From an uncultured Planctomycetales bacterium (GTDB taxonomy: Bacteria; Planctomycetota; Planctomycetia; Isosphaerales; Isosphaeraceae): 64,000 nucleotides of DNA. The notes beneath the pieces are model-generated. The model did not search any database, was not told the DNA's origin, and saw only the letters and a list, made by a program, of their open reading frames with translations. The position numbers were made by a program, and so were the translations under genes. Positions 4,819 to 7,532 of this stretch are shown here, one piece after another. The stretch covers positions 62,001 to 126,000 of the forward strand of contig CAIYJE010000126.1 of the NCBI GenBank assembly GCA_903926465.1. The letters are read 5' to 3'. The first letter of the stretch is position 1. Each line of letters begins with the position of its first letter.

Positions 4819-5051
4819 GTAACCGTTCAGCCCCGGACTGGCACCCGTTTTGCCAACCTCGTCTAGTCAGTCGAGGCAAAATCCGTATCTTGCCGGACCA
4901 TGAGCCCTCAAGATGCACCTGAACCAGCCCCAGTTCTCCTCGAATGTCTTCGGCTTCGCCGTGAACTCGATATCACGTTGGCACGCATCGCCGCACTCGA
5001 GGCCCAAGTTAAAGAACTCCTTGAGCAACTCCGACGGAACTCCTCCAACAT
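4819..5051 (+). mobile_element. IS66-family remnant (left end and start of transposase)
   Basis: The segment begins GTAACCGTTCAGCCCC, which resembles IS66-type terminal inverted repeats starting GTAA. It is followed after about 80 bp by an IS66 transposase start codon at 4900. Transposase similarity stops abruptly after the NSSN motif near 5051. No right end or target duplication could be found: the eight bases before 4819 do not recur downstream. It appears to be a truncated element that separated the TPR remnant from the PEP-CTERM fragment. Confidence 0.55.
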
Positions 5052-5109
5052 TGGTGCGACGGGAGTGATCCGGTCGGGTTCTTGTGCCTTGATACAGGCG
5101 AGCAGATAG
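4900..5109 (+). pseudogene. IS66 transposase (TnpC-like) N-terminal fragment
   Basis: The first ~50 residues are a leucine-zipper-like coiled coil (LRRELDITLARIAALEAQV, then KELLEQLRRNSSN), the hallmark N-terminus of IS66-family transposases. In intact proteins NSSNSSxPPSSD follows, then a zinc-binding region and a DDE catalytic domain. Here the sequence changes to IGATGVIRSG after NSSN and stops at 5109, so all catalytic parts are missing. The last ~18 residues are probably host sequence read through. Confidence 0.7.
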
Positions 5110-5155
5110 GAGATCAGTTGTTACCGAGGTAATTCAGAGATATTGCAGGCGAGAT

Positions 5156-5671
5156 GTGCGGAAAGGAAGGTACAACAACCCAGCCACCGGCATTAACACG
5201 ATTCAGGTGGGTGGGTTCAGCACCGAGGTCCAGGTGGTGTCAAATGCTGGTATTACCTTTACCAGCGTGAGTCAGAATACGGCCGCTGCGTACATCTTCG
5301 GAAATAATCCAGTTGCGCCCACGCTGGTGATAGCTAATTTTACCAGCACCGATATCAGTATGACCGATCTCTCGCTGGTAAGCCCAGATTTTCACATGGA
5401 ACTTGCGTCTGGGCAGTCGGTGGGGCTGGCGCATATTGAGTACACCCTGGCTTCCAGCGTTCCGCTGAGTGGCCCTGGTTCGCAGATTGCAGTGATGTTT
5501 GTGAGTGGAGGGACGACGATCAGCGGTGCCGACGGCGTGACCGCCTTGACCATCAGCGGACCCAATGATGGCACGATCACCGCCGTGCCCGAACCCGGCA
5601 CGCTGGTTTTGGCGGGCCTGCTGAGCGGCGTGGGTGGAGTTTTGGTGGTACGGCGGCGAACACGATCGTGA
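5156..5671 (+). CDS. PEP-CTERM sorting-domain protein, N-terminus missing
   Basis: About 171 residues. The C-terminus is a textbook PEP-CTERM anchor: VPEPGTLVLAG, a hydrophobic segment and the basic tail RRRTRS. Such proteins are exported and processed by exosortase. The preceding ~140 residues are Thr/Ser/Val-rich beta-type sequence typical of these surface proteins. No signal peptide is present. The frame is open upstream through the IS66 remnant, and the GTG at 5156 is only the first candidate start. It is most likely the 3' part of a gene whose 5' end was lost, so it may not be functional. The exosortase gene is not in this window. Confidence 0.6.
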   Translation: MRKGRYNNPATGINTIQVGGFSTEVQVVSNAGITFTSVSQNTAAAYIFGNNPVAPTLVIANFTSTDISMTDLSLVSPDFHMELASGQSVGLAHIEYTLASSVPLSGPGSQIAVMFVSGGTTISGADGVTALTISGPNDGTITAVPEPGTLVLAGLLSGVGGVLVVRRRTRS

Positions 5672-5678
5672 ATTGCAG

Positions 5679-5799
5679 CCATGGGAGAGGGCTTGCTCTG
5701 GTGGTACTGCGCCAGAGCAGGCCCTTGTCGACTGCCGCACTTCACGGATGACCCGAAGACGGCGTCATCCATGCCACCAGAGCAGGCCCTCTCCCATGG
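5679..5799. repeat. 26-bp near-perfect inverted repeat
   Basis: The arm at 5679-5704 (CCATGGGAGAGGGC and on to GGTGG) is the reverse complement of 5774-5799 with a single mismatch. The arms enclose shorter hairpins, including GGATGAC (5747-5753) with GTCATCC (5764-5770). It begins 7 bp after the PEP-CTERM stop codon. There is no T tract, so it is not a standard terminator; the RNA could fold into a branched structure. Confidence 0.85.
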
Positions 5800-5989
5800 C
5801 GGCACTGCTCCAGAGCAAGCACGACTCGTTTGCCGCACCTGCACGGATGACCCGGAGACGGAGTCATCCATGCCGCCAGAGCACGCCGTAGTCGAACGCA
5901 AAGAGGAGTCCGGCTCGGATGAAACCTCGCCCTCCCGCAAGCACTCTCCCAACGCTTCACTTCACGGATGACTCTTGGAAGAGTTATCC
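5733..5989. repeat. ~56-bp direct repeats with internal palindrome
   Basis: Units at 5733-5788 and 5831-5887 share the order TGCCGCAC, CACGGATGACCCG, AGACGG, GTCATCCATGCC, CCAGAGCA with few differences and one length change. Each contains the palindrome GGATGAC/GTCATCC. A third, divergent copy at 5966-5989 keeps only the hairpin (11-bp stem, 2-nt loop, one wobble). The pattern is like a REP/BIME or small MITE family rather than CRISPR, because the copies are few and of unequal spacing. Confidence 0.75.
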
Positions 5990-6383
5990 GGGCCACCTGG
6001 CACGATTTGCGAAAGCATTCAACCTGGTGTTGAAGGCCCCGCTCAATCATTAAAACTGGTCAGTCGCTTGCGCTCCCGGCTCAGACAAACTCCAATCGCC
6101 AAGGCATACGTCGGTCTGGTCCTATCGAGCCGCGACCGCTCACAAGATCGTTCCACCCACAGCGGTCAAGGTGGCGGGAACGGCCGACTGAGATGAAAGT
6201 GGGTCGGGATCTGAATGGCCCAAGGGCAAGACCTACTCTCACAGGCCTTTGGGCCTGTCTCGGTTCAATTTCCACCCAAGCCCTGCAGCCATACTTTTTC
6301 AAAGACCAGCCATATCGTATAATATTATGAATTCGTATCGCTTCGCGACTCAGTCTGCAACCACCCAGGCTCAGGACTTCTCC
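5990..6383. other. Intergenic sequence before the Tat-type oxidoreductase
   Basis: No credible gene in this stretch. A short hairpin (ACAGGCC at 6241 with GGCCTGT ending at 6258) has no T tract. The promoter at 6295-6323 is the only regulatory signal seen. Confidence 0.5.
6295..6323 (+). promoter_or_regulatory. Sigma-70-like promoter with consensus -10
   Basis: A perfect TATAAT lies at 6318-6323. Seventeen bases upstream is a weak -35 (TTTTTC, 6295-6300). Transcription would begin near 6330, downstream of the ATG at 6327, which supports the ATG at 6384 as the true start of the next gene. Confidence 0.5.
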
Positions 6384-7532
6384 ATGGCCTCCAATCGCCT
6401 CAATCGCCGGCATTTTCTGGGCTGCTCTGCGGCTGCCGGAGTGGCGCTGGCCCAGGGTCAGGTGGTGGAAGCCCTGGGATCCGATCAACCGGTCCGGCTG
6501 GGCCTGATCGGGCTAGGGAACCGTGGCACCACGCTGCTCAGAGGTTTTCTAAGCCTTCCGGGCGTGAATGTGGTTGCCGTCAGTGATCCGGAACTGAAGC
6601 ACAGGACCCGGGCCCAGGGCATTGCCGAGAAAGCTTCTGGACACAGACCAGAGGCCTTGGGAACGGCTGATGAGCTACTGGCCAGGGCCGATGTTGATGC
6701 CGTGGCTGTGGCGGTACCTTGTGACTTGCACGCCTCGCTGTACCAGGCCACGTTGCGGGCCGGTAAGCATCTGTACGCGGAAAAACCGCTCGGCCTCTCA
6801 GTCGCTGAATGCGATGAAATTGTGCAAGTTCACGCCGAGCACCCCGATCAGGTGCTTCACGTGGGGTTCCAGCGGCGCTGTCATCCTCGGTTCCAAGAGG
6901 CTGTGAGTCGGGCCCAGGGGGGCGATCTCGGCCGGCTGCTTGAGTGTCGCGCCCAGTGGTCAAGCAGCAACGGACCCATTGAAGGGCATAACGGCTGGAT
7001 GGCCCGGCGTGAGCGTTCGGGAGACTGGATGCTGGAACAGGCGATCCATGTTTGGGATTTCCTTTGCTGGCTACAAAACGGCCCACCTGAACTGGCCTTT
7101 GGCACCGGCCATCGAGACTTGTTCCGGGCCGTTGATCGCCAGCGAGATGTGACCGACTGGTACACGGCCACCCTTTTCTGGCGCGATGGCTTCTCGGCCT
7201 CGTTCTCGCAGTCGTGGATCGCACCCGCCGACGAACGGTTCACCGGGCTCAACATGTCGGTGCTCGGTACCGAAGGGGGGCTAGACCTCACCAGCGGAGT
7301 TTTGACCTACCGAGATCGATCGCGGCCACGAACGGTGCTGGCTCCTTCTTCCACACAAGATACCGAACTGGCCCTGGCCGAGTTCGTGAAGTCGGTTCGG
7401 TCTCCAGGCCGCGTAGAGGCCCCTATCGAACTGTCCGAGGCACGGCAAGCGACGCAGGTTGGCCTGCTCGTACGTGCAGCCGTTGATTCTGGCGGAGTTG
7501 TGCGGTGGGAAGACCTCTTCCCCGCCGTCTGA
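6384..7532 (+). CDS. Gfo/Idh/MocA family oxidoreductase with Tat signal
   Basis: 382 residues. Starts MASNRLNRRHFLGCSAAAG, a twin-arginine leader, so the folded enzyme is probably exported with its dinucleotide bound. A Rossmann domain follows (LGLIGLGNRG, a GxGxxG-type loop), then EKPLGLSVAEC, the EKP motif whose lysine is catalytic in the family. The C-terminal alpha/beta domain includes GDWMLEQAIHVWDFLCW with a conserved histidine. The substrate is unknown; relatives act on sugars or cyclitols. ATG 6384 was preferred to ATG 6327 because the Tat leader then sits at the N-terminus and because of the promoter position. It converges on ygfZ. Confidence 0.88.
   Translation: MASNRLNRRHFLGCSAAAGVALAQGQVVEALGSDQPVRLGLIGLGNRGTTLLRGFLSLPGVNVVAVSDPELKHRTRAQGIAEKASGHRPEALGTADELLARADVDAVAVAVPCDLHASLYQATLRAGKHLYAEKPLGLSVAECDEIVQVHAEHPDQVLHVGFQRRCHPRFQEAVSRAQGGDLGRLLECRAQWSSSNGPIEGHNGWMARRERSGDWMLEQAIHVWDFLCWLQNGPPELAFGTGHRDLFRAVDRQRDVTDWYTATLFWRDGFSASFSQSWIAPADERFTGLNMSVLGTEGGLDLTSGVLTYRDRSRPRTVLAPSSTQDTELALAEFVKSVRSPGRVEAPIELSEARQATQVGLLVRAAVDSGGVVRWEDLFPAV

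Follow-up and report, generated by a model that had tools for sequence, protein, structure and literature searches.

What is the cluster of nested palindromes that begins just after a gene end in this genome of an uncultured Planctomycetales bacterium, and how could it have arisen? The first-pass annotation of the window (the whole stretch of 64,000 nucleotides analysed here) had proposed a REP/BIME-like or MITE family not described for this group. We found that the cluster is best explained as an array of REP elements, the cognate enzyme of the family being a single-copy RAYT (TnpA-REP, an HUH/Y1 nuclease) encoded on contig C72, a reading to which we assign a probability of about 0.93. Its basis is a tagged palindrome with extragenic copies across the genome, a RAYT gene lying within inverted copies of the same repeat, and the same layout around homologous RAYT genes.

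Anatomy of the cluster

Three REP-type hairpins sharing one orientation occupy positions 5674–5999 of the window, together with linker repeats, one pair of which is inverted (31 nt). The whole repeat structure extends to about 6085, past the span first described. The elements listed in the first-pass annotation were all present. Its 26-bp inverted repeat with one mismatch extends to 31 nt (arms 5674–5704 and 5774–5804, 94% complementary and 69 nt apart), its direct repeats (5740–5788 and 5839–5887, 90% identical, 99 bp apart) each carry a GGATGAC..GTCATCC hairpin, and its third copy survives as a hairpin with one stem change at 5966–5989. The cluster indeed starts right after a gene, 3 bases past the stop codon of the ORF at 5156–5671, and has no T tract. 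Two components had been missed, namely part of a repeat from a second family, B, at 5906–5941 and a repeat of a third one, D, at 6019–6085.

Read along the plus strand, the upstream ORF, which bears a PEP-CTERM motif (Pfam PF07589, 21.8 bits for a cut-off of 20.7), is followed by the first arm of the inverted repeat (5674–5704), an inverted, minus-strand copy of the family-A linker repeat, and by a diverged plus-strand copy of this linker (5712–5741; family D1 in our repeat comparison). REP 1 (5743–5777, minus strand) consists of a GTGG tag (5774–5777) and then the CATGGATGACGCCGTCTTCGGGTCATCCGTG hairpin with one bulged base. The second arm, a plus-strand linker (5774–5804), and another diverged D1 copy (5810–5839, plus strand) lead to REP 2 (5842–5876, minus strand), with the same hairpin and a tag decayed to GCGG. 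A decayed plus-strand linker (5876–5900; D1, 63%) precedes the family-B fragment (GTCCGGCTCGGATGAAACCTCGCCCTCCCGCAAGCAC, plus strand), whose family flanks a further RAYT gene, RAYT-B, on contig C64. REP 3 (5963–5996, minus strand), of a subtype that we call A', has an intact GTGG tag (5993–5996), as does REP 1, and an inner stem TCT/AGA. The plus-strand family-D repeat, of the type flanking a class-3-like pseudogene on contig C169, closes the cluster. The next gene (6249–7532, plus strand), co-directional with the upstream ORF, encodes a Gfo/Idh/MocA-type oxidoreductase (Pfam PF01408, 63 bits). A possible second family-D copy, decayed (GGTCTGGTCC..GAGCCGCGACCGCTCAC), was seen at 6100–6136 by eye only. 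Upstream, in window 4900–5671, the PEP-CTERM ORF looks 5'-truncated, and a 53-aa coiled-coil-like fragment just 5' of it gave sub-threshold matches only (DUF6444, 15 bits). An IS66-like remnant suspected at 4900–5058 received no confirmation from Pfam.

The repeat family and its RAYT

The genome is a 6.89 Mb draft in 207 contigs, and the counts given here come from searches and retrieved stretches. A blastn search of window positions 5670–6000 against this genome returned 99 matches. The stem pattern GGATGAC-N3..16-GTCATCC occurs at 43 places, grouped in 29 clusters with differing flanks, whereas the reversed control pattern occurs at none and shuffling predicts no copy. These hairpins were selected on the stem pattern without use of the tag; nevertheless, GTGG precedes the stem in 32 of the 43 at positions -7 to -4, exactly at the base of the extended hairpin, where ~0.5 would be expected. 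On the tag strand, the element reads GTGG, then CATGGATGAC-g-CCG-loop-CGG-GTCATCCGTG, with the tag placed directly at the hairpin foot and, upon folding, a stem with one bulged base, that is, an imperfect palindrome. When mismatches were allowed, we listed 53 tagged copies in the retrieved stretches and about 60–70 family-A hairpins in total. When genes were predicted with a simple hexamer caller, 62 of 63 copies fell outside them. A tag, an imperfect palindrome of 20–50 nt, many dispersed copies and an extragenic location are the characters of REP elements, and all four are found in this family. The expectation that genome-wide searches would reveal a repeat family with mostly intergenic copies was thus borne out.

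Family-A copies also form inverted pairs on contigs C107, C170, C180, C182 and C198. Its tandem arrays have periods of 65 and 98 bp, a pattern suggestive of later expansion via slippage or recombination. The long ORFs running through these arrays were considered as coding sequences; since the frame of the repeated peptide shifts between units in C72, they are not genes. On contigs C103 and C170 (L032, L033, L045) we also observed tandem arrays with a 72–89 bp period made of a shorter subtype, GTGGCAT-GGATGAC-TCCG/TCAG/TCTT-GTCATCC. No RAYT was found beside the A' or the C103/C170 subtypes, which have the same stem and tag.

The RAYT-type transposase that the first-pass annotation had advised looking for does exist, and it is embedded in inverted copies of the cluster's own repeat. 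A 193-aa ORF on C72 matches the NCBIfam REP_Tyr_transpos model (NF047646, 83.4 bits for a cut-off of 80) and is the single full match in the genome. It is flanked by a 98-bp inverted repeat of family A (96/98 identical), with four tandem tagged copies upstream; for any one gene, hairpins both before and after it have a chance probability of about 8e-6. The HxH motif (H63, H65), Y143 and NP are invariant across 13 homologues (this protein aligned with 12 others). Among PDB entries, its predicted model (pLDDT 86) comes closest to 4ER8, which is the E. coli RAYT bound to a REP hairpin (Z 16.2, rmsd 3.4, 148 aligned residues, 24% identical over the aligned fold; Foldseek E 9.6e-8). With inverted flanks of the same family, an HUH motif plus a single Tyr, and a single gene copy, family A and this RAYT form a REPtron. 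By analogy with E. coli, cleavage of the single-stranded family-A REP is the predicted activity of the enzyme.

Homologues of the C72 RAYT at 30–44% identity occur in 15 relatives, and RAYTs in general in 36 of 40 genomes, a set that contains the genome of the window. The closest relatives of the C72 RAYT point to a planctomycete host. Of 29 loci collected from publicly available genomes, most of them of Planctomycetota, 21 were testable for flanking repeats. In 18 of these 21 homologues, the two flanks have a repeat in common that exceeds the 95th percentile of controls, a threshold chosen because the 99th was spoiled by repeat arrays within the control stretches. A scan for stems of at least 8 pairs behind GTGG or GTAG proved too strict, and the pattern emerged in a tag-free hairpin scan, which gave 3.4 hairpins per kb near the homologue genes vs 0.86 per kb far from them. 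These hairpins are typically inverted pairs (GGTGC-CACTGCTGG..CCAGCAGTG or GTGG-CAC..GTG) located ~60 bases before and ~40 after the gene, and several additional homologues exhibited the same tagged inverted-pair pattern. The tag and outer stem bases are thus kept across homologues while the inner stem varies, as would be expected of co-evolving RAYT-REP pairs.

Putative mechanism and alternative readings

According to PMC8266576, the TnpA-REP of E. coli recognises and cuts the single-stranded tagged REP hairpin. We infer recognition and cutting by the planctomycete RAYT from this enzyme, our own data being anatomy, co-location and conservation. The strand carrying GTGG and the hairpin would become single-stranded as lagging-strand template. 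The RAYT would then bind the tag and the imperfect hairpin, cut beside the hairpin through its HUH-activated tyrosine, and rejoin the strand elsewhere in single-stranded DNA. Surviving copies would build up between genes, and tandem arrays might expand via slippage or linker-linker recombination. The window locus would be a landing site at which family-A REPs, the family-B fragment and the family-D repeat piled up or were joined by recombination, with a GCAAGCAC-type linker common to them as the point of exchange. If the flanking mRNA is affected at all, this would be a secondary effect. Several points count against the REP/RAYT reading. The family comprises about 43 to 70 hairpins, fewer than the REPs of gamma-proteobacteria, which usually exceed 100 and typically number in the hundreds; the copies in the window are decayed; and the A' and C103/C170 subtypes have no RAYT beside them.

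An opposite view would be that the hairpins act at the RNA level as a transcription terminator, an attenuator or a protector of the mRNA 3' end, selected at the gene end and repeated as a by-product. The cluster's start so close to a stop codon, its strong folding as single-stranded RNA (z -6.8 against dinucleotide shuffles, the corresponding value for DNA being -5.5) and the lack of any clear repeat copy between divergent gene pairs speak for such a role. However, the T tract of a terminator is absent, an Rfam search of the window yielded tRNAs only and no match for the cluster, and the conserved part goes beyond pairing to include sequence and an unpaired, strand-specific GTGG tag. Moreover, family A surrounds a RAYT and was found as a DNA repeat in 0 of 39 relatives, unlike a conserved regulatory site. 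We therefore consider an RNA-level role improbable. Much less credible still is a MITE of a classical IS having the 31-nt inverted repeat as its ends. These arms are nearly perfect and lie 69 nt apart, but they belong to a linker module that stands in direct orientation within arrays elsewhere. What recurs is the tagged hairpin, and the family lies next to a Y1 HUH RAYT instead of a DDE transposase. The cluster lacks the layout of a MITE, with ends that match those of an IS, and the MITE suggested initially is not needed. That the repeats arose by chance or by misassembly, for which the fragmentation of the draft into 207 contigs might be invoked, has a negligible probability given the zero copies obtained with both shuffled and reversed controls. 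The 43 hairpin places against none for the reversed pattern refute chance, and the copies are diverged and distributed in 29 separate clusters with different flanks.

More serious is the possibility that the array is a passive relic, composed of once-mobile REPs now altered only by slippage and recombination, with the RAYT kept for another task. Since the window copies are decayed (REP 2 has lost its GTGG tag and REP 3 has a stem change), this particular locus may be a relic, and the tandem periods suggest local duplication. Nonetheless, the C72 RAYT is intact with all its catalytic residues, and the near-identity of the copies that flank it argues for recent activity or conversion. On this evidence, we regard a family reduced to passive change as a real possibility that is somewhat doubtful.

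Known systems and coexisting Y1 genes

The REP family and its RAYT resemble the E. coli REP/BIME system with TnpA-REP (RAYT group 2/subclass 2.2) in the tagged, imperfect and bulged palindrome, in the extragenic location, and in a single-copy HUH RAYT located between inverted REPs, with a predicted fold closest to 4ER8. They differ in the tag (GTGG vs GTAG in E. coli), the lower copy number, the 24% identity of the protein over the aligned fold, and the window array with one orientation and 28–33 nt linkers. Hence, the first-pass comparison with REP/BIME sequences holds for REPs and fails for BIMEs in the strict sense of alternating orientation, as all three window hairpins are co-oriented. 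For the same reason the cluster, which contains no inverted REP pair, is unlike REPINs (PMC3116915), although here too REPs would be mobilised by a RAYT, and some inverted pairs exist at other family-A loci.

GTAG-type REPs have been reported from the PVC superphylum, and GTGG is the tag of most repeats in one verrucomicrobial genome, that of O. terrae (PMC3733652). Family A shares this GTAG-type tag and is distinguished by its stem and loop sequence; no described family matched, the distinction being based on text descriptions. A literature search found no report of REPs in Pirellula or Gemmata. The initial suggestion of a family new to the group is only partly right: Planctomycetes are already known to contain GTAG-type REPs (PMC3733652) and genes similar to class-3 RAYTs (PMC6006769), but we found no published description of the cluster's own family. 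This family, itself new, extends a known type of mobile repeat to a new host, and it adds a well-documented REP-RAYT pair from a phylum in which RAYTs are common and for which we found few published repeats.

Class 3 TnpA-Y1 genes are known from Planctomycetes and Acidobacteria (PMC6006769). The genes on C25 (L052:1318-1830) and C177 (L055:1327-1864) and the pseudogene on C169 (L054, about 1330-1839, with one TGA) are similar to them (NHVH or NHAH, WT, YV---Q) and have their own inverted flanking repeats of 121, 159 and 35 bp, respectively. Family D, with 38 genome matches, borders the C169 pseudogene and is of this type; the main window hairpins are not. Likewise, RAYT-B is bordered by long inverted copies of family B. 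Because families B and D also border Y1 transposases of their own, the cluster is a mosaic in which three RAYT-type systems are represented by their repeats, most likely produced by RAYT-catalysed single-strand transposition together with recombination. At 6 of 13 places examined, family B has an A hairpin no more than 150 bp away, as do family-D heads at 13 of 38; both fractions are biased upward by the selection of the stretches examined, which centred on families A and D. B-linker-A and A'-linker-D junctions recur at several loci. One might speculate that the REPs of the A, B and class-3 type D systems share exchangeable linkers and form recurring composite units (B-A, A'-D), so that one enzyme could carry another's palindromes and the mosaics would be cross-mobilised instead of resulting from independent insertions at the same spot, an idea that we consider rather unlikely.

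In this single genome, four or more REP-type Y1 systems coexist, each with repeats of its own, alongside a group-1-like Y1 gene on C129 (L051:1-1175) that has no inverted flanking repeats and serves as an internal control; the specificity between enzymes and repeats and their exchange can thus be tested side by side. Upstream of the C129 gene, we observed two direct copies of an inverted-repeat element (CCAAAATGGGGACAGGC..GCCAGTCCCCATTTTG).
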